DNA of 64,000 nucleotides from Acidocella sp. (GTDB lineage: Bacteria > Pseudomonadota > Alphaproteobacteria > Acetobacterales > Acetobacteraceae). The DNA is taken from the NCBI RefSeq assembly GCF_027352905.1, contig NZ_DAIEIF010000029.1, positions 124,001 through 188,000 on the forward strand, given 5' to 3'. The position numbers were made by a program, and so were the translations under genes. Within the stretch, counting starts at the first letter, position 1. Each line of letters opens with the position of its first letter. This document shows positions 41,020 to 53,147 of the stretch, in pieces. The notes under the pieces are model-generated. The model was not told the origin of the DNA and made no database searches. It was given only the letters and a program-made list of their open reading frames with translations.

Positions 41020-41970
41020 ATGGCGACGCAACGCAAAACCAAAGCCGCCGCCCCGGCGCAACCGGCGCAACCGGCGAAACCGGCGAAACCGGGGAGGACC
41101 GGCAGCCGGGCGGCCAGGCCGGCCGCCCGGCGCGAGACGGCGCGGGCGGCGGGCCGCAGCCTCTGGACCGGACAAATCCGGCTGGCGCTGGTGAATATTC
41201 CCGTGCAGCTCGTCGCCGCGCTCAACAGCAGCGCCAAGCTCACCTTTCATCAGGTAGATAAAAAATCCCACAAGCGAATCCGCTACGAAAAGGTGGCGCC
41301 CGGCATAGGCCCGGTGAAGGCGGAGGATATCGTCAAGGGTTATGAGATGAGCAAGGGCAATTATGTCCTGCTGACGGATGAGGACCTCGACCATATCAAG
41401 CTGGAGGCCAGGCGGACCATCGATCTCGTTCAGTTTGTCGATCATTGCGAAATCGATCCTATCTATTTCGATAAGCCCTATTACGTGCTGCCGGATGGAA
41501 ACCTGGCCCTGGAAGCCTATGCGGTGGTGCGCGACGCGATGCGCGCCACCGGCAAGATGGGCATCGGGCAGTTCGTGATGCGCGGGCGCGAATATATCGC
41601 CGCGCTGAAGCCCTGCGGGCGGGGGTTGATGCTGGAGACGCTGCGTTTCGCCGATGAGGTGCGCCGGGCCGCCCCCTTCTTCGCCGATATCGGCGAGGTG
41701 GAGGCCGATCCCGAATTGATGGAGCTGGCCGAGGATCTGATCCGTAAAAAGACCAAGCCCTTCGATCCTGAAGCGTTCCGGGACGATTATACCGAGGCGC
41801 TGCGCGAATTGATCGAGGCCAAGGCCAAGAATAAGGTGAGCGTGGACGAGGCGCCGGAAAGCCAGCCGGAACGCGGCAATGTCGTGGATCTGGTGGAGGC
41901 GTTGCGCCGGAGCGTGCGCGCCAACGAGGCGGAGGCCAGCCCGCCGAAGCGGGGCCGGCGTGCCGGCTAA
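41020..41970 (+). CDS. ku: Ku protein (non-homologous end joining)
   Basis: A 316-residue bacterial Ku that binds DNA double-strand ends. The core runs from about residue 47 (SLWTGQIRLALVNIPVQ) through KRIRYEKVAPGIG and FDKPYYVLPDG to the C-terminal NVVDLVEALRRSV and a basic tail. The first 46 residues form an unusual extension rich in Ala, Pro, Lys and Arg with PAQ/PAK repeats. It overlaps ligD by 11 bases, so ends binding and sealing are coupled in one operon. Confidence 0.96.
   Translation: MATQRKTKAAAPAQPAQPAKPAKPGRTGSRAARPAARRETARAAGRSLWTGQIRLALVNIPVQLVAALNSSAKLTFHQVDKKSHKRIRYEKVAPGIGPVKAEDIVKGYEMSKGNYVLLTDEDLDHIKLEARRTIDLVQFVDHCEIDPIYFDKPYYVLPDGNLALEAYAVVRDAMRATGKMGIGQFVMRGREYIAALKPCGRGLMLETLRFADEVRRAAPFFADIGEVEADPELMELAEDLIRKKTKPFDPEAFRDDYTEALRELIEAKAKNKVSVDEAPESQPERGNVVDLVEALRRSVRANEAEASPPKRGRRAG
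41053..41088 (+). repeat. 9-bp tandem repeat in the ku N-terminal extension
   Basis: CCGGCGCAA twice, then CCGGCGAAA twice, in frame, encoding the PAQPAQPAKPAK stretch. It suggests slippage-driven growth of the basic/proline-rich tail. Confidence 0.85.
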
Positions 41971-44389
41971 GGATCAGCTCGCCACCTACCGGGCCAAGCG
42001 GCGTTTCAGCGAAACCGCCGAGCCCAGCGGCGAGGCCCGGCTCAAGCCCGGGGCCCGTTATCTCATCCAGAAACACGCCGCCCGGCGGCTGCATTATGAT
42101 TTCCGCCTGGAGTTGGATGGCGTGCTGCTCAGCTGGGCGGTGACGCGCGGGCCCAGCTACGACCCGCACGACAAGCGCCTCGCCGTTCGCACCGAGGATC
42201 ATCCGCTGGATTACGGCGATTTCGAGGGCACGATCCCCAAGGGGCAATATGGCGGCGGCACGGTGATGCTGTGGGATACCGGCACATGGGAGCCGCTGGG
42301 CGACCCGCGTGAGGGGCTGAAAAACGGCAAGCTCGCCTTCGTCCTGCATGGGAAGCGCCTCCACGGCAAATGGGCGCTGGTGCGGATGCGCCCGCGCGAG
42401 AAGGAGACGCGGGAAAACTGGCTCCTCATCAAGGAGCACGACGAGTATGAGGGCAGCGAGCCGGATCTGCTCGAACGTGAGGTGACATCAGTCAAAACCG
42501 GGCGGACGATGGAACAGATCGCCGCGAACGCGCCGGTATGGCGGCGCTCCGACCCGCCCGCCTTTATCGCCCCCGCCTTGGCGACGCTGGTTGAAACGCC
42601 GCCCGCCGGCGATGGCTGGCTGTTCGAGATCAAATATGACGGATACCGCGCCATCATCGCCGCCGATGGGCAGGAGGTGCGGATTTATACCCGCTCCGGC
42701 CTGGATTGGACCGCCCGCTATCCCGCCATCGCCGAGGCGGTGGCGGCGCTCGCTTTGCCCGCGGCGCTGCTGGATGGGGAAATCGTTGTCATCGGCAAGG
42801 ATGGGGTGACGGATTTCGGCATGCTGGTCGGCGCGCTCGAAGGGCGGATCAACGCGCCCATCTCATGCTTTCTTTTCGATGTGCTGGTTTATCAAGGCGA
42901 GGATGTGCGCCCCCAGCCCCTGCGCCAGCGGCGGGCGCTGCTGGAGCGCCTGCTGGGCCACCCGCCCCGCAACGCCCCGCTGCAATTGAGCGAGAGCTTC
43001 ACCGGCGATGGCGCGACGCTGTTCAAGACCGCCTGCCAGCACGGGCTGGAAGGGCTGATCGCCAAGCGGGCGGAGGCGCCGTACCGCTCCGGCCGGCACA
43101 TGGATTGGCTGAAACTGAAATGCCATCACGGCCAGGAATTCGTCATCATCGGCTTCGCACCCTCCGATAAACCCGCACGCCCGTTCTCATCGCTGCTGAT
43201 GGCCGTGCGCGAGGGGAAGGAGTTGCGCTATGCCGGGCGGGTGGGGTCCGGTTTTTCCGATGAAACGTTGCGGCGCCTGGCGGCGTGGCGGGAACGGCAT
43301 CGCCGCAAGCAACCGCCCTGCGAGGTGCCCGCACCCATGCGCCGCGGCGTGGTATGGGTGAAGCCGGAGCTGGTGGCCGAGATCGCCTTCGCGGATTGGA
43401 CGCCGGACGGCATGATCCGCCATGGCCGGTTCGTCGGGCTGCGCGAGGACAAGCCGGAGGAGGAGATCGAACGCGAGATGCCCCAGCCGCCCAAACCCCA
43501 GCCCGCAGCCGAGCCCGCTTTGCGCATCACCCATCCCGAGCGGATCGTCTATCCCCAGGCGGGGCTTAGCAAAAAAGAGCTCGCCCTTTATATCCAACGC
43601 GCCGCCCCGCTGATGTGGCCGTTCGTCCGGGACCGCTTTCTCTCCCTGGTCCGCTGTCCGGAAGGCGTGGGCGAGACCTGCTTTTTTCAGCGTCACCGCG
43701 TGCCGGGTTTCGGCGAGGATTGGGGCGAGCAAGCCTATACCAGCGGCAAGGGCCATACGGAGCGTTATCTCTACCCTGTTTCACCCCAGGCCCTGCTGGT
43801 GGCGGTGCAGATGGGGGTGATGGAATTCCACCTCTGGGGTTCGCGCCGGGACAAGCCGGACGTGCCGGACCGGCTGGTCTTCGATCTCGATCCCGACCCC
43901 GGTCTTGCCTTTGCCGAGGTCCGCTCCGCCGCCGCCCGCTTGCGGGACGTGCTGTCGGCGCTGGGCCTCGCCAGCCTGCCCATGCTGAGCGGTGGGAAGG
44001 GCATTCATGTGATCGTGCCGCTCCGCCGCCAATATGATTTCGCTGTGGTCAAGGAGTTTTGCGGCAATGTCGCGCGGCGTCTGGCGGAGGACGCGCCAGC
44101 CCGCTTCACCGCCACCATGAGCAAGGCCCAGCGCCACGGCAAGATTTTCATCGATTTCTTCCGCAATGAGGCGGGTTCCACCGCCATCGCCCCTTATTCT
44201 CCCCGGGCGCGGGAGAGCGCCAGCGTGGCCTGGCCTTGCGGCTGGGACGAGCTGGACGGTTTTGCCGAGGCGCATGAGGTTACCATACCCAGAGCCATGG
44301 AGCTTTTGGCCGCGTATAAAGACCCCTGGGCGGACGTGCCCGCCCAGCGCCTCACCAAGGCGTCTCTGCGGGCGGTGGCGGGAGATTAG
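41960..44389 (+). CDS. ligD: multifunctional DNA ligase D (PE-LIG-POL)
   Basis: An 809-residue enzyme for end joining with all three activities. The N-terminal 3'-phosphoesterase (about 8-175) has HAARRLHYDFRLELDGVL; the ATP-dependent ligase (about 205-500) has the adenylation lysine K225 in EIKYDGYR; the C-terminal primase-polymerase (about 515-805) has DLDPDP and LSGGKGIHVIVPL. The order is as in Pseudomonas LigD. The start is GTG at 41960 inside the ku end. It converges on the DUF72 gene with a 4-base overlap. Confidence 0.96.
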   Translation: MPAKDQLATYRAKRRFSETAEPSGEARLKPGARYLIQKHAARRLHYDFRLELDGVLLSWAVTRGPSYDPHDKRLAVRTEDHPLDYGDFEGTIPKGQYGGGTVMLWDTGTWEPLGDPREGLKNGKLAFVLHGKRLHGKWALVRMRPREKETRENWLLIKEHDEYEGSEPDLLEREVTSVKTGRTMEQIAANAPVWRRSDPPAFIAPALATLVETPPAGDGWLFEIKYDGYRAIIAADGQEVRIYTRSGLDWTARYPAIAEAVAALALPAALLDGEIVVIGKDGVTDFGMLVGALEGRINAPISCFLFDVLVYQGEDVRPQPLRQRRALLERLLGHPPRNAPLQLSESFTGDGATLFKTACQHGLEGLIAKRAEAPYRSGRHMDWLKLKCHHGQEFVIIGFAPSDKPARPFSSLLMAVREGKELRYAGRVGSGFSDETLRRLAAWRERHRRKQPPCEVPAPMRRGVVWVKPELVAEIAFADWTPDGMIRHGRFVGLREDKPEEEIEREMPQPPKPQPAAEPALRITHPERIVYPQAGLSKKELALYIQRAAPLMWPFVRDRFLSLVRCPEGVGETCFFQRHRVPGFGEDWGEQAYTSGKGHTERYLYPVSPQALLVAVQMGVMEFHLWGSRRDKPDVPDRLVFDLDPDPGLAFAEVRSAAARLRDVLSALGLASLPMLSGGKGIHVIVPLRRQYDFAVVKEFCGNVARRLAEDAPARFTATMSKAQRHGKIFIDFFRNEAGSTAIAPYSPRARESASVAWPCGWDELDGFAEAHEVTIPRAMELLAAYKDPWADVPAQRLTKASLRAVAGD

Positions 44390-45258
44390 CCAAGCATTTC
44401 CTCAAGCCGCTGCGCATCGAAGGGGGCGCGGACTTTTATGTCGTTATCAAAATAGACGTAAACATCCCGCGCCCGCTTGCGCCCGCGCGGCGCGCCCGGC
44501 ACGAATTCCGATTCCGGCGCCTCGCCGCCCTCCGCCCAGGCGCGTACCCTCCGGCTCCAGCTTTTCAGCGCCGCCTCGTCATAGCCGCTCGCATAGAGCT
44601 CTTCCGAACCGTGGAGGCGGCAATAGACGAAATCGCTGGTCAAATTCATCAGGCGCGGCCAATCCACCGTATCGGCGCAGACCAGGGCGATATCATGCCG
44701 GGCGAGCAGCCGGATGAAATCGGGGTCGCGAAAGCTTTCATGGCGAATTTCCACCGCGTGGCGTAGCCGCAGCGGGGGCGGGGTTTCCTCATCCGGTTGT
44801 TTCAGCCGGGAATCGTGGCGGCGGCCGAGCGCATGCGCCGCGCCGCTGTCATGAGGCAGAAGGGAAAGAAACGGCTCGAACCGCGCCGCGTCGAAGGCCA
44901 TGTTCGGAGGAAATTGCCAGAGAAATGGGCCGAGCTTGCGGCCCAGGCGCAGCACGCCTGAGGCGAAAAAATTGGCGAGCGGCGTTTCCACCTCGCGCAA
45001 GCGGCGGATATGGGTGATGAAGCGCGGCCCCTTTACCGCGAAGACGAAATCCTCCGGCACGGCCTCCCGCCACGCCTCGAAATTTTGGGGGCGCTGGGTG
45101 CCGTAAAACGTGCCGTTGATTTCCAGGGTGCGAAAGATGGAGGCGGCATAGCTCAACTCATCCTTCTGCTTGAGACCTTTGGGATAGAAGACCCCGCGCC
45201 AGGGGGCGTAACGCCAGCCGGAAATGCCGATGCGAATCTCGCCCCGCCGCCGCGCCAT
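44386..45258 (-). CDS. DUF72 (YecE-like) protein
   Basis: A 290-residue TIM-barrel-like protein of the DUF72 family (IGISGWRYAPWRGVFYP, EINGTFYGTQRP, FAVKGPRFITHIRRL, LWQFPPN). Its biochemical function is not known. It starts immediately after the lactonase-like gene (the stop TGA abuts ATG), so it is the last gene of the minus-strand run 51.1-44.4 kb, and its end overlaps ligD convergently by 4 bases. Confidence 0.9.
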   Translation of the reverse strand: MARRRGEIRIGISGWRYAPWRGVFYPKGLKQKDELSYAASIFRTLEINGTFYGTQRPQNFEAWREAVPEDFVFAVKGPRFITHIRRLREVETPLANFFASGVLRLGRKLGPFLWQFPPNMAFDAARFEPFLSLLPHDSGAAHALGRRHDSRLKQPDEETPPPLRLRHAVEIRHESFRDPDFIRLLARHDIALVCADTVDWPRLMNLTSDFVYCRLHGSEELYASGYDEAALKSWSRRVRAWAEGGEAPESEFVPGAPRGRKRARDVYVYFDNDIKVRAPFDAQRLEEMLG

Positions 45259-46137
45259 TCATGCCACGCGCCAATGGCGCTTCTGTCCGCGCCGGTTGAC
45301 CTGTAGGCGGAACAACCCGCCCGCCTGTGGCTCCCTGGCGATTTGCGCGGCGTCCAGCCCGTCCCGGGCGCTGGAAATATAGAGCCAGTCCAGATCCGGC
45401 CCGGCAAAGCAGCACATCGTGGGCTGGCTCACCGGCAGGCTCACCCGCTCCACTAGCTGGCCCGACGGGTCATAGCCATGCAAGGCCCACCCGCCATGAA
45501 TGGCGCACCAATAAATACCCGTCTCGTCGAGCGCGGCGCCGTCCGGAATGCCCTCTCCCTCTACGATCGCGAATATTTGCCGCTCCCCCAGTCGGCCGGA
45601 TCTGACATCGTAAGCGTAACGGTAAATGGTTCTCTCCTCGCTGCGGGAGAGAAACATGCCGCGCTCATCGGCGCTCCAGGCCATACCGTTGGTGATAAAG
45701 GAAAAATCCGGATAGGCCCGCAGCCCCTCGCGGCTGGTGTAGCTGTAAAGCGCGCCGGTCCGCGTGGTTTCCACACCGGCGGGCGGGTCGGTCATCGTAC
45801 CCACCCAGAACCGGCCCTGGCTGTCGCAACCGCTTTCATTGAAGCGGATAAGCCTGGTGTCGAAGGGCGGCGGCGCGACCATCTCCAGCGCGCCGCTTGT
45901 CAGATCGAGCCAGTGCAGCCCGTTGCGCAGGGCGAGAAAAGCCCGCCCCTTACCGTCCAGCGCGAAACCGCCGAGATCGGCCGGCAGTTCCCAACGCCGC
46001 GTCTCGCCGCTGGCATGGTCGAGCGCGTACAAGGCGGGGGCCTTGATGTCGGCCCAATAGAGCCTGCCTTCCTCCGGGACCCAGAGGAGGGATTCGCCGA
46101 TGATCGCCTTGGCGTTGGTCACCAGTTCCAGCTTCAA
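45259..46137 (-). CDS. SMP-30/gluconolactonase family protein
   Basis: A 292-residue six-bladed beta-propeller. GESLLWVPEEGRLYWADIKA (given in part) holds the metal Glu, FNESGCDSQGRFWVGTM the Asn region, and NGMAWSADERGMFLS and GIPDGAALDETGIYW the Asn/Asp metal ligands. It probably hydrolyses a sugar lactone. The start is TTG at 46137 with GGGAGAGG before it, overlapping the GMC oxidoreductase stop by 4 bases. Next to a GMC sugar oxidoreductase, a role in lactone hydrolysis after oxidation is likely. Confidence 0.9.
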   Translation of the reverse strand: MKLELVTNAKAIIGESLLWVPEEGRLYWADIKAPALYALDHASGETRRWELPADLGGFALDGKGRAFLALRNGLHWLDLTSGALEMVAPPPFDTRLIRFNESGCDSQGRFWVGTMTDPPAGVETTRTGALYSYTSREGLRAYPDFSFITNGMAWSADERGMFLSRSEERTIYRYAYDVRSGRLGERQIFAIVEGEGIPDGAALDETGIYWCAIHGGWALHGYDPSGQLVERVSLPVSQPTMCCFAGPDLDWLYISSARDGLDAAQIAREPQAGGLFRLQVNRRGQKRHWRVA

Positions 46138-47765
46138 AGCTCGCCTCTCCCGGCCATCGCCTTGATGCGGTCCGCCGTGCGCAGGGCGATCGCCTGAATG
46201 GTGAGGGAGGGATTGACCCCGCCGGTGGTGGGAAACACCGATCCGTCGCAAACCCAGAGATTGGGAATGTCCCAGCTGCGGCAATCGGCGTCGACGACGC
46301 TGTCCTCCGGAGTGAAGCCCATGCGCGCCGTCCCGGCGAGATGATTCGCATCCTCGCGCTGGGGAAAAATATCCTCCGCGCCGATGGCTTCCAGGCTGCG
46401 GGTCATCTCGGAAATGGCATGGCCGATCAGCTTCCTGTCATTCTCGCCCCAGCTGAAGGTGATGCGCGGAATGCGCAGCCCATATTGGTCTACCTCATCT
46501 GCGAGGGTGACCGTGTTGGCGGCGTCCGGCAGCGTCTCGCCCACCATTTTCAGCCCGACCTGATGGTTATAGTTCAGCATGTCCTGCCGCAGCGCCTCGC
46601 CCCATAAACCCCGCGCCCCGGTCTGGATGAACCCCCATTCGATCGGCAGGGGCCCCTGCGCCATCCAGCAATACCCGCCAAAAAAATCCTTGCGGTCGTC
46701 ATAATTCCAATGCTCGGTGATGGTGAAGGAGGGGGGCCCCTTGTACCAGCGCACCTCGTCGCGCATGCGGCCGAACACCGCCTGGTTGCTCTGCGTCATG
46801 AAATATTTGCCGACCAGGCCAGAGCGGTTGGCCAAACCGTGCGGATGCCGGCTGGTGGCGGAGTTCAGCAGCAGGCGCGGCGTCTCCACCGCATAGCCCG
46901 CCACCACCACGTTGCGGGCGCGCTGAAAATGCCAGGCGCCTTCCCGGTGAAAATGCACCCCGGTGGCGCGGTCACCCTTCACCTCGATCCGTCCGGCCAT
47001 CGCCAGGTCACGGATCTCCGCCCCGGCGGCAAGCGCGCGGGGGATCCAAGTGTTCAGCGTGCTCTGCTTAGCGTTGGTGGAACAGCCGAACCGGCAGAAG
47101 CCGCGATACACGCAAGGCGGTGATTTGCCGCGCGGCGCGGAGACGGTGGCGAGCGGCGTCTCCGTCCATTGATAGCCAAGGGCCTCCGCCCCCAGGGCGA
47201 GCAGCCGCCCGGCTGAGTTGATCTCATGCGCCCGGTAGGGGTAGCGCGGGCGTTTGGGTCCCCAGGGGTAGGTGACCGGACCCGAGATCGCCAAGGCCAG
47301 CTCCGCCTCCCGGTAATAGCGCCACATCTCCCGCCAATCGAGGGGCCAGTCCGCGCCATAGCCCAGGACAGAGCGGCTCCTGAACCACTCCGGACGGAAG
47401 CGCAGCGAAACCATGGCGAAATGCACCATGCTGCCCCCCACCGCCTTGCCGCTATTCTTGCCCCCCATTTGCAGGGGAGTGCCGCCATCCACGATCCGCC
47501 GGTCGTTCCAGTAGAGCTTTTCCTGCTCCGTCTCATCCGAGGCGAAATCGTCGAGCGGGCGGAAATAGGCTCCCGCATCCAGCGCCACCACGGAAAACCC
47601 CATCTCGGCCAGCCGTCCGGCCAGGGTGCCGCCCCCCGCCCCGGTGCCGATGATGAGAAAATCCACCTCGTCATCGAGGCTATATTCGCGCATCGGCACC
47701 CAGCCTCCCGGCACGAATACATCCGGGGCGCGCCCGGCGATGGCGCGCGGTGCCTCAGGCGACAT
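46134..47765 (-). CDS. GMC-family FAD-dependent oxidoreductase
   Basis: A 543-residue flavoprotein. The FAD Rossmann motif is FLIIGTGAGGGTLAGRLAE near residue 37, GKAVGGSMVHFAMVSLRFRP is the GMC N-terminal signature, and NLWVCDGSVFPTTGGVNPSLT the C-terminal one. Three-subunit gluconate/sorbitol-type dehydrogenases pair such a subunit with a Tat-exported small subunit; the small-subunit-like gene is directly upstream and overlaps by about 11 bases. No Tat signal or cytochrome c subunit is seen, so it may act in the cytoplasm. Substrate unknown, sugar or alcohol likely. Confidence 0.92.
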   Translation of the reverse strand: MSPEAPRAIAGRAPDVFVPGGWVPMREYSLDDEVDFLIIGTGAGGGTLAGRLAEMGFSVVALDAGAYFRPLDDFASDETEQEKLYWNDRRIVDGGTPLQMGGKNSGKAVGGSMVHFAMVSLRFRPEWFRSRSVLGYGADWPLDWREMWRYYREAELALAISGPVTYPWGPKRPRYPYRAHEINSAGRLLALGAEALGYQWTETPLATVSAPRGKSPPCVYRGFCRFGCSTNAKQSTLNTWIPRALAAGAEIRDLAMAGRIEVKGDRATGVHFHREGAWHFQRARNVVVAGYAVETPRLLLNSATSRHPHGLANRSGLVGKYFMTQSNQAVFGRMRDEVRWYKGPPSFTITEHWNYDDRKDFFGGYCWMAQGPLPIEWGFIQTGARGLWGEALRQDMLNYNHQVGLKMVGETLPDAANTVTLADEVDQYGLRIPRITFSWGENDRKLIGHAISEMTRSLEAIGAEDIFPQREDANHLAGTARMGFTPEDSVVDADCRSWDIPNLWVCDGSVFPTTGGVNPSLTIQAIALRTADRIKAMAGRGEL

Positions 47766-48396
47766 GGCGGTTATGGCGATAGGCTTTGAGATCGCCTTCG
47801 CTTTTCGCTTCCGCCGCCTCCCAGGGGTCGTGGCGGTTGGTGTCCAGGCGGACATAGCCTCGCGGGCTGGCCGGGCCGCCGAAACCGATCTCGCTCCAGG
47901 CGGTGGGGTGGCCGTAATAGGCCTCGACGATATCGGGCAGCAGCCGCTTGGCAAAGAACAGCCCCGGCGGCACGCGTTGCCATGGCGCGCCGGCTGGCTC
48001 GCCCTTTTGCATCGCGGTGAGCAGCGCATCCGCCGTCCGGTCATCCAACGCCGCGAAACCCTGGCCATGGCGCATAACCGCCTCCGCCTCCAGCGCCGCC
48101 AAAGCCAATTTCCAGGCGTCGCCGTCCCATGGCATCGGCTCGATGCGCGTGCCCGCCGCGCCCATGCGCAGCATCTTCGCGTCGATCAGCGCGGCGATGG
48201 GCACGGGCGGCCGTCCCGGCGGCTGCGGTATGATGCGCTGGCTGACGCGATCCAGGACCGCCCATTCCGCCATGCTGAAAAATCGCGGCTCACGGGGCAC
48301 GGCCAAGCGCAGATCAACCGCCTGGCGCGTGGCCTCATTCCAAGAGGGGCCGGTGCGCTTCGTCAGAACGTCATAACCAGGGAAACGTCGGTTCAT
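47755..48396 (-). CDS. gluconate 2-dehydrogenase subunit 3 family protein
   Basis: A 213-residue protein with the subunit 3 outline (FSMAEWAVLDRVSQRIIPQP, VPPGLFFAKRLLPDIVEAYYGHP, GFGGPASPRGYVRL). In known systems this subunit carries the Tat signal and binds the GMC flavoprotein; here no twin-arginine signal is visible at the N-terminus, which is unusual. It lies between the ThDP enzyme and the GMC gene in one run. Confidence 0.82.
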   Translation of the reverse strand: MNRRFPGYDVLTKRTGPSWNEATRQAVDLRLAVPREPRFFSMAEWAVLDRVSQRIIPQPPGRPPVPIAALIDAKMLRMGAAGTRIEPMPWDGDAWKLALAALEAEAVMRHGQGFAALDDRTADALLTAMQKGEPAGAPWQRVPPGLFFAKRLLPDIVEAYYGHPTAWSEIGFGGPASPRGYVRLDTNRHDPWEAAEAKSEGDLKAYRHNRHVA

Positions 48397-48399
48397 GCC

Positions 48400-50184
48400 T
48401 TATTTGCTCCCGGGCAGGATGGAAGCCAGAACTTCCCGGGCGGTGTTCCTGATCACCGAGCCCCTCTCCGGCTCGCGGATGAGCGAATGCAGGAAGTTGC
48501 GGGCATCCTTGGCCGAAATATGCGGCGGCAAGGGCGGCACGTTCGGGTCGGTCCGCACTTCCAGAATGACGGGGCGGTCGGCGCTCAACGCTTCATCCCA
48601 GGCCCGGCCCAGCTGGTCGGGATGATCCACGTAGATCCCCTTCAGCCCTAGTAATTCGGCATATTTGGCATAGGGAAAATCCGGGATGGATTGGGTGGAA
48701 AGCGTCTTCGCCTCGCCGAGCTGCACCCGCTCCTCCCAGGTGACCTGATTCAGATCCTGGTTGTTGAGCACGAGCACGATGAAGCCCGGCGTTTTCCATT
48801 TGCGCCAGTATTTCTTCACCGTGATCATCTCGTTGATGCCGTTCATCTGCATCGCGCCGTCGCCCATGAAGGCGATGACCATACGCTCCGGAAAGGCGAA
48901 TTTCGCGCCGATGGCGTAGGGCACGCCCGCCCCCAGCGAGGCCAGGCTGCCGGAGAGGGAGCCCTTCATGCCCCGCCTCATTTTAATGTCGCGGCCATAC
49001 CAATTGGCGACGGAGCCGGAATCGCCGGTCATGATCGTGTTTTCCGGCAGGCGGGGAGAAAGCTCCCAGAACACCCGCTGGGGATTGACCGGGCTGGCCG
49101 GCTGCATGGCGCGGTCCTCCAGCGTCTTCCACCAGGCCGCCACGTTCTTTTCGATCTCGTTGCGCCAGCCGAGGTCTTTCTTCTGTTCGAGCATCGGCAA
49201 GAGCGCGCGCAAACTGGCGGCGCTGTCGCCGATCAGGTTGACCTCCATGGGATAGCGCAGGCTGAGATTGGCGCCGTCTATGTCGATCTGCACCCCCCGT
49301 GCCGAACCCGGCTTGGGAAGAAATTCCGAATAGGGGAAGGCGGAACCGATCATCAAGAAGGTGTCGCAACCCTTCATCATGTCCCAGCTCGGCTTGGTGC
49401 CGAGCAGGCCGACACCGCCGGTGACGAAGGACAGCTCATCGGGCACCGCCGCCTTGCCAAGCAGCGCCTTGGCCACCCCCGCGCCGAGACGGTTGGCGAC
49501 GGCGATGACCTCATCCGTGGCATGCAGCGCGCCCGCGCCCACCAAGATCGCGACCTTCTTGCCCGCGTTGAGGATGGCGGCGGCCTCGCGCAGCCCGTCC
49601 GCATCCGGGACGAGGGCGGGTTTGGCGAAGCCGATGCCGGTATGGGTGGCGCCATGGGCCACCGGCGGGTCGGAATAAGGCAGTTCCTGAAGATCATTGG
49701 GCAGGATGACGCAGGTGACCGTGCGTTTCTCATGAGCGATGCGCACCGCCCGGTCGATGAGATGGCGCACCTGGGCCGGCACGCTCGCCGTCATCACGAA
49801 TTCGGACGCGACATCCTTGAACAGATTTTGCAGGTCGACTTCCTGCTGGTAATGCGCGCCCAAAGCGGTGCGGGCCTGTTGGCCGACAATGGCGACCACA
49901 GGCGTATGGTCCATCTTGGCGTCATACAACCCGTTGAGCAGATGGATGGCGCCGGGGCCGGAGGTGGCGTAGCACAACCCCACCTCGCCGGTGAATTTGG
50001 CATGGGCCGAGGCCATGAAGGCCGCCATCTCCTCGTGCCGGACCTGGACGTATTCTATTTTGTCCTGGGCTTTTTCCAAGGCGATATCCAGCCCGCCGAC
50101 GCCATCGCCAGGATAGCCATACACCCGTTTCAGCCCCCATTCAGCAAGGCGTTTCCACACGAATTCCGAAACATTCAGAGCCAT
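48400..50184 (-). CDS. thiamine-diphosphate enzyme, pyruvate oxidase/PoxB-like
   Basis: A 594-residue ThDP-dependent enzyme. The catalytic Glu51 is in VQVRHEEMAAFM; ATSGPGAIHLLNGLYDAK, GDSGSVANWYGRD and the ThDP motif GDGAMQMNGINEMITVKK...NNQDLNQ are present. The architecture fits the acetolactate synthase/pyruvate oxidase group, with closest style to PoxB-like pyruvate dehydrogenase (quinone) or stress-type ThDP proteins. AAGGAG lies before the ATG at 50184. Substrate not certain. It is 4 bases before the subunit 3 gene. Confidence 0.88.
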   Translation of the reverse strand: MALNVSEFVWKRLAEWGLKRVYGYPGDGVGGLDIALEKAQDKIEYVQVRHEEMAAFMASAHAKFTGEVGLCYATSGPGAIHLLNGLYDAKMDHTPVVAIVGQQARTALGAHYQQEVDLQNLFKDVASEFVMTASVPAQVRHLIDRAVRIAHEKRTVTCVILPNDLQELPYSDPPVAHGATHTGIGFAKPALVPDADGLREAAAILNAGKKVAILVGAGALHATDEVIAVANRLGAGVAKALLGKAAVPDELSFVTGGVGLLGTKPSWDMMKGCDTFLMIGSAFPYSEFLPKPGSARGVQIDIDGANLSLRYPMEVNLIGDSAASLRALLPMLEQKKDLGWRNEIEKNVAAWWKTLEDRAMQPASPVNPQRVFWELSPRLPENTIMTGDSGSVANWYGRDIKMRRGMKGSLSGSLASLGAGVPYAIGAKFAFPERMVIAFMGDGAMQMNGINEMITVKKYWRKWKTPGFIVLVLNNQDLNQVTWEERVQLGEAKTLSTQSIPDFPYAKYAELLGLKGIYVDHPDQLGRAWDEALSADRPVILEVRTDPNVPPLPPHISAKDARNFLHSLIREPERGSVIRNTAREVLASILPGSK

Positions 50185-50199
50185 CACGAAACTCCTTTC

Positions 50200-51054
50200 T
50201 CAATCCTCGGGGTGAGCGCGCAGCAGGGCGAGCGCGGCGAGTCCGGCCATGGCCAGGCCGGTAAAGCTCGGCGGGGCGGGAATGGGGGGGCCATCCACCA
50301 TGTTCTGGCGCCAGTTGTGCCAGCCGCCCATGGCGCGGGAGACGCCGTAAATATGAAAGCCGGAACCGGCGATGCCGAGCAGGGCGGTGAGGCGCAGCCA
50401 GAACCGCGTGAACCGGCGCTCTTTGCGGGAATTGCCAAACGTCGCCTTGCCCATCAGGGCGCCCGCCACGGGTGGCAGCGTGACCGGCAGGAACATGGCG
50501 GGATTTTGGAAGGCACCCCGGAAATGGAGCAAGCCCGCCTCACCGGAGGTGGCGAACAGCCCGACAGAGGTGACAAGGGAGGTGACCCGCCCAGCATTGA
50601 GGCCAAAGATGCGGGGGGTTTCGCCAGGCGGGGTGTCGCGCACGCGCTCCGCCAGCAGCCCGAACAAACCGGAAAGAAGAATGGCGGCAGGCGCGCCGAT
50701 GGGGCCGGAGTAAAACAAATTCTGCCAGGAAAGCCCGCCTGGTTTCTTGAGCGTGTTGTAGAGATGAAACCCGATGCCGGCGATGCCGGTGGCGGCGGTC
50801 AGGCCGAACAGCCGGTCCCGCTGGCGGTGGCGCCGCTGGCGGTCGTCATTATGCCCGTGCAGGCTGGTGCTCAGCGCCGCGATGGAGGTGAGGATCGGCG
50901 TCACCATGGCCGGATTGTAGAAACCGCCGCGGTAATGCTCCATCGCGCTATCCGCCAATACCGAGGCCGCGAGCATGGCGGAACCCCGGTTCAGTCGTTT
51001 CGCGGCTTGGACGGCGGGCTGGGTTTCAGGCGCAGCGCGCGAAATTCGCGGCAT
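50200..51054 (-). CDS. internally duplicated membrane protein, unknown function
   Basis: A 284-residue protein with several hydrophobic helices and a clear internal repeat: HYRGGFYNPAM (40-50) matches HFRGAFQNPAM (177-187), and TAATGIAGIGFHLYN (86-100) matches TALLGIAGSGFHIYG (223-237), about 137 residues apart. Not recognised as a named family. The ATG at 51054 has GGAG upstream. It starts the minus-strand run with the ThDP enzyme 15 bases downstream and may help its role in the membrane. Confidence 0.8.
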   Translation of the reverse strand: MPRISRAAPETQPAVQAAKRLNRGSAMLAASVLADSAMEHYRGGFYNPAMVTPILTSIAALSTSLHGHNDDRQRRHRQRDRLFGLTAATGIAGIGFHLYNTLKKPGGLSWQNLFYSGPIGAPAAILLSGLFGLLAERVRDTPPGETPRIFGLNAGRVTSLVTSVGLFATSGEAGLLHFRGAFQNPAMFLPVTLPPVAGALMGKATFGNSRKERRFTRFWLRLTALLGIAGSGFHIYGVSRAMGGWHNWRQNMVDGPPIPAPPSFTGLAMAGLAALALLRAHPED

Positions 51055-51537: not shown

Positions 51538-51996
51538 ATGAGATCCATGCCAGCCAGATTATTGCACGAAGTCAATGGCCAACGGACCTACTCCGTGGTT
51601 CTGAGGACAGGAGAGGAGGTCATGCGGTCTCTCGCCGATTTTGCCAAGCGCGAGGCGATCTCGGCCGCGCAGATTTCCGCCATCGGCGCCTTCAGCGAGG
51701 CGGTCATCGGCTATTTCGATTGGACCGCCAAGGGTTACATTAAAATACCCGTGCCGGAGCAGGTGGAGGTCGCCTCGCTGCTCGGCGATATCGCCCTCGG
51801 CGAAAACGGCGAGCCGGCTCTGCATATTCATTGCGTGTTGAGCCGCCGCGATGGCAGCGCCCGCGCCGGCCATCTTCTCCAAGGTCTGGTGCGGCCGACG
51901 CTGGAGGTCATTCTCACCGAGAGCCCCGCGCATCTACGCAAGCGCCACGACCCGGAAAGCGGGCTGGCGCTCATCGATCTCGCGGCTCGGCCATGA
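51538..51996 (+). CDS. PPC/DUF296-domain DNA-binding-like protein
   Basis: A 152-residue protein with the PPC (DUF296) fold: YSVVLRTGEEVMRSLADFAK, ISAIGAFSEAVIGYFDW, LHIHCVLSRRDGSARAGHLL and RPTLEVILTES. In plants the domain joins AT-hooks; bacterial copies stand alone and are of unclear role. The start may be 51538 or the ATG at 51547. It overlaps the hydroxyacid oxidase gene by 4 bases. Confidence 0.88.
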   Translation: MRSMPARLLHEVNGQRTYSVVLRTGEEVMRSLADFAKREAISAAQISAIGAFSEAVIGYFDWTAKGYIKIPVPEQVEVASLLGDIALGENGEPALHIHCVLSRRDGSARAGHLLQGLVRPTLEVILTESPAHLRKRHDPESGLALIDLAARP

Positions 51997-53147
51997 GTAA
52001 GGAGCTTACCCGCATTCTCGATCTCGACCAGTTTCAGATGGTGATGAAGGCGCGTCTGCCCCGCGCGGTTTACACCTATGCCGCCGCAGGCTCGGAGAGC
52101 GAGGCCAGCCTGCGCGCCAACCGCGCCGCGCTGGACCGCTGGCGGCTCGTCACGCGCGTGCTGGCGGGGGTGGAGAAACGGGATCAGCACATCACGCTTT
52201 TCAACCAGCGCTATGCCTCGCCTTTCGGCATCGCGCCGATGGGCGGGGCGGCGCTGATCGCCTATCAAGGCACGGTTGAAATGGCGCGCGCCGCCCGCGC
52301 CGCGGCCATCCCCTTCATCCTCAGCGCCAATACCATCATCCCGCTTGAGGAAGTGGTGAAGGCCAACCCGGATATGTGGTTTGCCGCCTATCAGTCCCCG
52401 GAGGAGGAGGCCATACACGGCATGGTGCGGCGGTTAAGGGCCGCGCGCGTATCGGTGCTGGTGGTCACGGCGGATGTGCCCATCGGCTCCAACCGGGAGG
52501 AGGATGTTCGCCACGGTTTCGCCTTGCCCATCCGTCCTAATCTACGGCTTGGCCTGGATGTGGCGACCCATCCCGGCTGGGTCGCCCGCACGTTTCTGCC
52601 CACATTGCTCAGGCGCGGGCAACCCCACCTCGTCAATCTGGAGCCCTGGGGAGGGCCCGGCCTGTTTTCGCGTAAGGTGAAAACCGTCGCCTCGCATGAG
52701 GGGCTGAACTGGAGTCACATCCGCCTCTTGCGCCGGCTTTGGGAGGGTATGCTGGTGATCAAGGGTATTCTCTCCCCGGCGGATGTCGCCCTGGCGAAGG
52801 AGGCCGGGGCGGATGGCGTCATTCTCTCCAACCATGGCGGGCGGCAACTGGATTATGCGGTCGCGCCGATGGATATTCTCGAGGAGGCGCTGGACCAGGC
52901 GGGGCCGATGCCGGTGATGCTGGATGGGGGCTTTCGCCGGGGCACGGATATCGTCAAAGCCTTGGCCCTGGGGGCCGCGGCGGTCTTCATCGGCCGGCCC
53001 TTCCTGTTTGCCGCCGCTTATGCCGGGGAGCGGGGGGTGAGCCACGCCATCCATTTGCTGCGCCGTGAACTCGATAAGGACATGGCTCTCTTGGGCACGC
53101 GCCGTCTGGAGGAACTCGCCCCCGCTTTTCTACGCAAAGTCGCGTGA
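51993..53147 (+). CDS. FMN-dependent alpha-hydroxyacid oxidase/dehydrogenase
   Basis: A 384-residue TIM-barrel flavoprotein of the lactate/glycolate oxidase family. The catalytic His281 and Arg284 are in LSNHGGRQLDYA; FGIAPMGGAALIAYQGT, SANTIIPLEE and LVIKGILSPADVALAKEAGAD form the FMN and substrate site. No membrane segment or cytochrome domain is seen. It overlaps the PPC gene by 4 bases (ATGA) and so is co-translated. The hydroxyacid oxidised is not known. Confidence 0.93.
   Translation: MSKELTRILDLDQFQMVMKARLPRAVYTYAAAGSESEASLRANRAALDRWRLVTRVLAGVEKRDQHITLFNQRYASPFGIAPMGGAALIAYQGTVEMARAARAAAIPFILSANTIIPLEEVVKANPDMWFAAYQSPEEEAIHGMVRRLRAARVSVLVVTADVPIGSNREEDVRHGFALPIRPNLRLGLDVATHPGWVARTFLPTLLRRGQPHLVNLEPWGGPGLFSRKVKTVASHEGLNWSHIRLLRRLWEGMLVIKGILSPADVALAKEAGADGVILSNHGGRQLDYAVAPMDILEEALDQAGPMPVMLDGGFRRGTDIVKALALGAAAVFIGRPFLFAAAYAGERGVSHAIHLLRRELDKDMALLGTRRLEELAPAFLRKVA

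Follow-up and report, generated by a model that had tools for sequence, protein, structure and literature searches.

A candidate membrane-bound, quinone-linked sugar dehydrogenase gene set in Acidocella sp. that lacks a Tat-type small subunit and a cytochrome c

The locus described here lies in a 64,000-nucleotide stretch of the genome of Acidocella sp. (contig NZ_DAIEIF010000029.1, positions 124,001 to 188,000; hereafter the window). It comprises a run of six genes that encode a membrane protein, a PoxB-like thiamine diphosphate (ThDP) enzyme, a protein of the gluconate 2-dehydrogenase subunit 3 family (hereafter subunit 3), a GMC oxidoreductase, an SMP-30 family protein, and a DUF72 protein. 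Gene families were assigned by scans against Pfam and NCBIfam, and coordinates were checked on the window. The six genes and three neighbors are as follows.

51054-50200, minus strand: membrane protein of 284 residues, the proposed membrane electron acceptor or anchor.
50187 (GTG start) or 50184 (ATG start) to 48400, minus strand: ThDP/flavin adenine dinucleotide (FAD) PoxB-like enzyme of the PRK08273 type (NCBIfam NF006129).
48396-47755, minus strand: gluconate 2-dehydrogenase subunit 3 family protein of 213 residues (PF13618, 80 bits against a cut-off of 23.4).
47765-46134, minus strand: GMC catalytic subunit of 543 residues (PF00732/PF05199).
46137-45259, minus strand: SMP-30/gluconolactonase family protein with a TTG start (PF08450, 221 bits), proposed to hydrolyze a lactone.
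45258-44386, minus strand: DUF72 protein (PF01904, 238 bits).
51372-51157, minus strand: small HMA-like protein of 71 residues (PF00403, 25.7 bits against a cut-off of 24.8).
51538-51996, plus strand, divergent: PCC-domain protein (PF03479, 103 bits).
51993-53147, plus strand: flavin mononucleotide-dependent alpha-hydroxy-acid oxidase/dehydrogenase (PF01070, 383.7 bits).

The six genes run along the minus strand from 51054 to 44386. In order, the first two junctions are gaps of 12 or 15 bases and of 3 bases, the next two are overlaps of 11 and 4 bases, and the last two genes abut with 0 bases between them, which confirms the initial annotation of six genes on one strand with gaps of 0 to 15 bases or overlaps. 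The family assignments likewise bear out its description of the set as resembling one for sugar oxidation. The longest open reading frame of the GMC gene begins at 48068, and an internal ATG was preferred as the start because alignment with relatives supports it. The closest GMC proteins are those of Acidocella facilis (86%, the closest named species) and of one Acetobacteraceae metagenome-assembled genome (MAG; 87%). The SMP-30 protein is matched by the solved structure of regucalcin (4gn7) at E 4.4e-38.

A class-wide search identified two other genomes with subunit 3 homologs at 50% and 47% identity, plus two remoter matches, and in both of these relatives genes for the membrane protein and GMC adjoin subunit 3. 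A scan of a genome collection returned 232 GMC relatives. Among the best 80 of these 232 loci, many of which are interrupted by contig ends, homologs of subunit 3 were detected at 77, the membrane protein at 73, the ThDP enzyme at 58, SMP-30 at 16, the PCC protein at 9, and DUF72 at none. A later tally of 82 loci, from which 14 with less than 4.5 kb of upstream sequence were set aside, left 68; here, the membrane protein and subunit 3 were both found at 66, the ThDP enzyme at 56, and an enolase-superfamily gene, usually positioned between the ThDP and membrane protein genes, at 45. The bit score, distance, and coverage thresholds for calling neighbors were chosen by hand.

The membrane protein, subunit 3, and GMC occur together in Pseudomonadota, Deinococcota, Acidobacteriota, and, with a half-size membrane protein, Actinomycetota. 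The order ThDP enzyme, enolase-like protein, membrane protein, subunit 3, and GMC was observed on annotated plasmids of Lichenicola, Komagataeibacter, Nitrobacter, and Deinococcus peraridilitoris; Granulicella has the conserved order with an inserted cyclase gene, the ThDP gene is reversed in the clusters of Burkholderia and Paraburkholderia, and the clusters of Croceicoccus and Methylocystis have no enolase-like gene. Both plasmids and chromosomes carry such clusters. Three genomes have two GMC loci each (Acidisoma sp. L85, L015/L017; MAG G5_19, L016/L019; Rhodopila globiformis, L066/L082), indicating that the module has been duplicated in some genomes. A plasmid of Deinococcus sp. D7000 encodes subunit 3 and GMC as a single fused protein of 865 residues (L148:5464-8061), preceded by a single-repeat membrane protein. 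Since the trio recurs across genera and phyla, its grouping exceeds chance.

As a six-gene unit, however, the run recurs only in part: the trio is found in other genera and phyla, but DUF72 is near none of the 80 related loci (tblastn E <= 1e-4, at least 30% identity, flanks of up to 10 kb). DUF72 was therefore rejected as a functional member and looks like a hitch-hiker in the run; an annotated DUF72 gene does occur about 2 kb away from the cluster on the Nitrobacter plasmid.

The membrane protein and subunit 3 were each searched for in the same sample, by its listed genome handles, of 397 genomes from the phylum. The membrane protein was detected in six, and the same six hold subunit 3 homologs scoring above 200 bits; the next subunit 3 in the sample scores 90 bits, and the membrane protein is absent from the 52 other genomes in the sample with subunit 3 matches. 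The two genes are adjacent in five of the six genomes, with the ThDP gene between them in the genome of the window. This shared occurrence ties the membrane protein to one subfamily of subunit 3, as would be expected of a subunit.

According to the available text of PMC9727119, the small subunit of the known enzymes is a twin-arginine translocation (Tat) hitch-hiker. We read 30 subunit 3 loci from the phylum sample, which cover the six genomes above and 24 of the 52 others, with a simple rule (twin arginine followed by a hydrophobic stretch). A Tat-like signal was found on none of the six membrane-protein-linked subunit 3 proteins versus 20 of 21 distant ones (L119-L139), the 21st carrying a Tat motif that is evident by eye and was missed by the rule. 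This contrast indicates that the missing Tat signal is a property of the subfamily rather than a local loss. Three loci of intermediate score (L116-L118) also have no N-terminal Tat signal; in L116 and L117 the rule flagged sites within a long open frame, about 200 residues ahead of subunit 3, and these were not counted. Among relatives at the related loci, 77 of 82 subunit 3 sequences (those of 195-232 residues) were scanned, and the rule flagged six, all at residues 29-57 and none N-terminal, as well as one of 82 GMC proteins (residue 32); these internal sites were judged not to be signals. Rather, the subunit 3 proteins of relatives open directly with a conserved Y-P-G-Y-D-V-L motif, and inspection by eye revealed no Tat signal on the subunit 3 proteins of Granulicella, Frondihabitans, and Deinococcus peraridilitoris or on the fused protein of Deinococcus sp. 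D7000. The initial annotation had described subunit 3 as lacking a Tat signal and the set as lacking a cytochrome c, and both statements held: the rule found no signal where its positive controls scored 20 of 21, and no CxxCH motif occurs in the operon proteins or in the other scanned proteins of the window (HMA-like, PCC, short-chain dehydrogenase/reductase (SDR), Ku, LigD, and alpha-hydroxy-acid oxidase).

The intermediate loci L116, L117, and L118 represent a second kind of subunit 3 without a Tat signal, located beside GMC (L010 is listed as the same genome as L116). The GMC protein at these loci has four cysteines. In the L116 genome the open frame holds, by eye, an alpha/beta-hydrolase-like stretch ahead of subunit 3; on a Sphingomonas plasmid (L103), an alpha/beta hydrolase gene adjoins a related GMC gene.

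The membrane protein of the window has no Pfam or NCBIfam match, and a comparison of 50 family members with Pfam gave nothing better than E 0.015. Hydropathy and an AlphaFold2 model (pLDDT 90.8) indicate about eight helices. Its two halves align over 114 columns (probability 99.1%, E 8.5e-19), so that the protein is a duplicated four-helix unit. His40, His97, His177, His234, Arg42, Arg179, Met50, and Met187 are invariant in 73 membrane protein sequences, and the four histidines are likewise invariant in a set of 50. Single-repeat proteins of 154-157 residues are encoded beside subunit 3 and/or GMC in Frondihabitans and on two Deinococcus plasmids, and each of the 31 homologous repeats that were aligned, single-repeat homologs included, has both histidines (two further rows were dropped as unrelated proteins). 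An apparent case of two split halves in Deinococcus sp. D7000 proved wrong, as homology is limited to the second small gene. On the two Deinococcus plasmids, a small cysteine-containing membrane-like protein is encoded between the SDR and the membrane protein (L148:4619-5017, L149:4619-5008). A bis-histidine heme b would require a pair of histidines placed in this way, on the first and third helices of a four-helix unit, and the membrane protein is thus our best candidate for the missing electron acceptor. A search of a phage collection gave no match to it. A structural comparison by VIA-align placed 3d19/3dby on top (Z 11.2 and 10.9), which we take to be a two-bundle metalloprotein; these scores are within the chance range for helical bundles and were not used as evidence.

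The best solved relatives of the GMC protein are fructose dehydrogenase and FAD glucose dehydrogenase (7w2j, 6a2u). In the glucose enzyme, the cluster ligands are Cys212, Cys218, and Cys222. The motif C218-x5-C224-x3-C228 aligns with the cysteines of fructose dehydrogenase, and these residues, like the catalytic pair H475/N518, are invariant in 83 of 83 GMC sequences. The fructose and FAD glucose dehydrogenase group carries a [3Fe-4S] cluster (available text of PMC9727119), and the GMC protein probably carries one as well. In the B. cepacia glucose enzyme, a cysteine near the cluster ligands forms a disulfide with the small subunit (same source). Position 219, which is a cysteine next to a cluster ligand in fructose dehydrogenase, is a cysteine in 0 of 83 sequences here, and subunit 3 has no universal cysteine (14 of 78 have none at all). 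An intersubunit disulfide is therefore not expected, which fits a location in the cytoplasm. Most Tat-type GMC proteins of the control loci have a fourth cysteine; since the non-Tat loci L116-L118 have it too, it is a weak test of location. At two loci (L024:13928-15502 and L090:11641-13218), neither of which has an enolase-like gene or oxidase nearby, a second GMC gene, different in type, is present no more than 5 kb from the cluster.

The ThDP enzyme matches NF006129 with 1032.6 bits (cut-off 724) and falls below the cut-off of the PoxB model NF006591 (358.5 versus 792 bits), its closest solved chain being 3ey9, a 'pyruvate dehydrogenase [cytochrome]' (E 5.4e-82). The initial annotation had suggested that this enzyme provides an alternative electron route. 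That view was not supported: it is the membrane protein that constantly accompanies the dehydrogenase, whereas the ThDP enzyme, found at 56 of 68 loci, is a frequent but not a constant neighbor and is better read as catalyzing a later step. In all nine distinct genomes searched that do not have it at the locus, a homolog was nonetheless found (60-68% identity in eight and 45% in one), at a distance of about 10 kb from the GMC gene in at least one of them.

The gene that most relatives carry between the ThDP enzyme and the membrane protein belongs to the enolase superfamily (PF13378, PF02746) and is closest to acid-sugar dehydratases, albeit below every named cut-off; its best solved relative, 3cyj, bears only the family name. 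To compare its distribution with that of the alpha-hydroxy-acid oxidase, we tallied 93 loci, set aside 16 with less than 4.8 kb of upstream sequence, and counted 77. The ThDP enzyme is nearby at 63 of these, 49 with and 14 without the enolase-like gene. An alpha-hydroxy-acid oxidase was found at none of the 49 and at seven of the 14 (Fisher 6.2e-6, for loci that are not independent); by hand-made genus label, the contrast is 0 of 28 versus 5 of 12 (p 0.0012). The window is an eighth oxidase-bearing case, and a search of its genome returned no enolase-like relative, although that query did find matches in other genomes. The oxidase of the window is closest to lactate dehydrogenase models, below their cut-offs. 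A dehydratase-like enzyme and an oxidase would each yield a 2-oxo acid from a sugar acid, and a 2-oxo acid is the type of substrate that the ThDP enzyme uses.

Several neighboring genes point to an aldose as the putative substrate. GH15 glucosidase/trehalase-like genes occur at 27 of 94 loci, classical SDRs at 35, and a sensory-rhodopsin-transducer-family protein at 13, figures that stand without a background rate; the window itself yielded none of the three. In Frondihabitans, the gene set is followed by an aldose 1-epimerase, and a beta-glucosidase is a further element of the sugar context. The sensory-rhodopsin-transducer loci are L009, L044, L049, L064, L069, L072, L074, L075, L076, L095, L098, L148, and L149, and the gene adjoins the ThDP gene in L095 and L098.

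Upstream regions were also scanned for the promoter of EcfG, with the pattern GGAAC-N16/17-(C/G)GTT, for which the consensus was taken from the available text of PMC6599016 and PMC7083833. Such sites occur in nine of 66 upstream regions of relatives, 64-90 bases before the ThDP match, versus 0.51 expected from random windows. With 67 regions counted, the nine compare to an average of 0.6 for the 30 orders in which the -35 letters can be arranged (the true order is among them, and the runner-up gives 3); at other spacings, 0-1 sites were found. All nine loci belong to Alphaproteobacteria by record title or organism. These sites exceed the controls, which suggests that the gene set is probably part of the general stress response in a portion of the class. 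No such site was found upstream of the operon in the window, and EcfG control of that operon was rejected, the genome having 34 sites versus 90 for a reversed control pattern. No literature that links EcfG to these genes was found.

Collectively, and with moderate confidence, we propose that the core of the set (membrane protein, subunit 3, and GMC) is a membrane-bound, quinone-linked dehydrogenase of the aldose type, with its catalytic part in the cytoplasm, that feeds an unrecognized pathway. The gene families, the linkage of the membrane protein with subunit 3, the absence of a Tat-like signal, the conserved cysteines and histidines, and the locus-level exclusion of the oxidase and dehydratase are direct observations. 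From them we infer the location, the cluster, the hemes, the use of quinone, the substrate, and the order of steps. The complex probably works like a gluconate-type dehydrogenase with another acceptor. GMC would oxidize a sugar on its FAD and pass electrons to the [3Fe-4S] cluster, as in the FAD glucose and fructose dehydrogenases. Electrons from the cluster would then enter the eight-helix membrane protein, which would substitute for an exported triheme cytochrome c and reduce quinone, probably through two b-type hemes on the four invariant histidines. The lactone that results from sugar oxidation would be opened by SMP-30, and the sugar acid would be converted to a 2-oxo acid by the enolase-superfamily dehydratase in most relatives and by the divergent alpha-hydroxy-acid oxidase in Acidocella sp. 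Finally, the PoxB-like ThDP/FAD enzyme would decarboxylate the 2-oxo acid oxidatively, with electrons again passed to quinone. More tentatively, and with appreciable doubt, the membrane protein may found an undescribed family of membrane electron carriers, derived by duplication from a four-helix unit with two histidines, that makes a cytoplasmic quinone-reducing enzyme out of an exported dehydrogenase of the cytochrome c type. Together with the ThDP enzyme and a dehydratase or alpha-hydroxy-acid oxidase, it would constitute a complete and unreported respiratory pathway of sugar shortening, whose oxidations would supply the quinone pool and which would be stress-controlled in some Alphaproteobacteria.

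A number of observations weigh against the proposed cytoplasmic dehydrogenase. Its main weakness is topology: lysine plus arginine counts in the loops favor an inside N-terminus (14.9 versus 7.5 per protein), which puts all four histidines and the conserved loops toward the periplasm, an ill fit to a cytoplasmic dehydrogenase, although the net charges of the loops are about equal on both sides. A Foldseek search with the membrane protein model gave no match at E <= 0.001, and nothing ties its fold to a known cytochrome b; its profile yielded two chance-level matches alone among PDB sequences (E 0.26 and 0.32). The subunit 3 model likewise had no Foldseek match at E <= 0.001, with no known small subunit among the 50 matches listed, and a PDB search with the subunit 3 profile came back without a solved chain, which tells against a close likeness to known small subunits even though the Pfam match is clear. 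A triheme cytochrome c of 547 residues is encoded on another contig (C33:73439-75082, equivalent to L145:3940-5583). The exclusion of oxidase and dehydratase applies at the level of the locus only: of the six genomes with the dehydratase that were searched, one encodes an oxidase of 47% identity elsewhere (the other five only 32-36%), three of ten genomes with no dehydratase at the locus carry one elsewhere, and four genomes with neither gene at the locus have an oxidase elsewhere at 53% in one case, at 37% in another, and not at all in two. In addition, seven of the 14 ThDP loci that lack the enolase-type gene have neither gene nearby, and SMP-30 is at only the 16 of 80 loci noted above. Lastly, the carbon that GMC oxidizes could be a different one, or its substrate something other than a sugar.

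The topology raises the unlikely alternative that the complex works in the periplasm after export by an unusual route, for example with the membrane protein, and delivers electrons to the periplasmic histidine side. The predicted topology does place the conserved face outside, and the sequence A-R-R is present at residues 18-20, just ahead of helix 1, in 32 of 73 membrane proteins; the authors who described the Asaia operon discussed below also leaned toward the periplasm (available text of PMC4596401). Arginines ahead of the first helix are, however, ordinary in a protein with an inside N-terminus. Moreover, at the loci to which the rule was applied, neither subunit 3 nor GMC has a Tat-like signal at its N-terminus, inspection by eye found none on subunit 3 of three other phyla, and the lack of an expected disulfide fits the cytoplasm.

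Similarly improbable is that the membrane protein, instead of carrying electrons, is coupled to the dehydrogenase for transport or for export of the product, and that GMC reduces quinone directly. Some membrane-associated GMC enzymes do give electrons straight to quinone, and such a role would suit both the lack of a cytochrome fold match and the conserved polar and aromatic residues in the predicted outer loops. It would be at odds with the one-to-one pairing of the membrane protein and subunit 3 across the phylum sample and with the redox-like pattern of four invariant histidines in a repeated four-helix unit, the same pair of which is retained in single-repeat homologs.

Somewhat less likely still is a pyruvate oxidase operon, in which the ThDP enzyme would oxidize pyruvate formed from lactate by the alpha-hydroxy-acid oxidase and the other genes would be accessory. 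The PoxB-like character of the ThDP enzyme and the proximity of the oxidase to lactate dehydrogenase models, albeit below their cut-offs, are compatible with this, as is the published interpretation of the Asaia operon, which is induced in co-culture (available text of PMC4596401). Against it, the constant core is the GMC, subunit 3, and membrane protein trio, with the ThDP enzyme not nearby at 12 of 68 loci and below the PoxB cut-off in score; further, a gene resembling acid-sugar dehydratases replaces the oxidase in most relatives, and some have SMP-30, GH15, or epimerase genes nearby. That this is an ordinary subunit 3/GMC dehydrogenase served by the one triheme cytochrome c, found among four PF13442 places in the genome (the genome-wide search covered PF13442), is very unlikely, as its gene is on another contig with no sugar-dehydrogenase gene recognized beside it by eye, subunit 3 has no Tat signal, and relatives have the membrane protein instead; a cytochrome elsewhere, raised in the initial annotation as a possible refutation, thus exists but does not clearly belong to this enzyme.

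The remaining neighbors bear on the extent of the operon. The HMA-like gene sits 102 bases upstream of the membrane protein gene and is possibly the first gene of the operon; no relative of it was found among the 80 related loci, a weak test given the short query. The PCC and alpha-hydroxy-acid oxidase genes overlap by 4 bases, and this divergent pair is probably linked functionally to the operon. At the other end, the DUF72 gene overlaps the end of the convergent ligD gene (44389) by 4 bases. The Ku and LigD genes, at window positions 41020-44389, abut the end of the operon, and at a closely related locus (L014) they come after SMP-30 on the same strand.

The gene set is distributed over at least four phyla, where its members carry separate labels (hypothetical protein, GMC oxidoreductase, and thiamine-requiring protein). 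Should the proposed function be correct, a membrane protein family with no Pfam entry would gain a function, the dehydrogenases used in biosensors would have a cytoplasmic branch with a different electron acceptor, and a testable route for non-phosphorylating sugar oxidation would be at hand. With a dehydratase in some clusters exchanged for an alpha-hydroxy-acid oxidase in others, the middle step can be tested directly.

The initial annotation could match the set to no known pathway. We also found no described pathway, but the four-gene core had been described in Asaia bogorensis in 2015 (PMC4596401), so that this statement stands for the pathway and not for the genes. In the available text of that paper, Asbog_02184-02187 are presented as a putative pyruvate oxidase operon that is 'unique' to the species and induced in co-culture, with its location left open. 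The operon has the same four core genes (ThDP enzyme, membrane protein, subunit 3, and GMC), and the Asaia loci in our dataset (L025, L026, and L029) have these four plus an alpha-hydroxy-acid oxidase. The paper, as far as its available text goes, reports seven helices and a single species, whereas we find about eight helices in two repeats, a wide distribution, a locus-exclusive third enzyme, and a sugar context. Our literature search found no description of the gene set beyond that paper, and, as far as the literature was searched, several points are new: how widely the set occurs, its link with the membrane protein, the repeat and the histidines of that protein, the contrast in Tat signals, the third gene with its exclusivity at the locus, and the stress promoters.

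Among characterized systems, YdaP is a type of pyruvate oxidase, and the PoxB/YdaP-type enzymes share the ThDP/FAD family with the enzyme described here, which differs in that it scores above the PRK08273 family cut-off and not the PoxB cut-off and accompanies a dehydrogenase. The enolase-superfamily acid-sugar dehydratases (L-talarate/galactarate, arabinonate, and gluconate/galactonate) match the partner gene of most relatives, below named cut-offs. The closest likeness is to the three-subunit FAD dehydrogenases (B. cepacia FAD glucose, fructose, gluconate, and 2-ketogluconate dehydrogenases), which share a GMC protein with [3Fe-4S]-type cysteines, a PF13618 subunit, and adjacent genes. Those enzymes have a Tat-bearing small subunit and a triheme cytochrome c, whereas the operon here has neither and encodes an eight-helix membrane protein instead; the cysteine next to the first cluster ligand in fructose dehydrogenase is missing as well. 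Because two defining features, Tat signal and cytochrome c, are missing, we have not classified the complex as a gluconate-type dehydrogenase.

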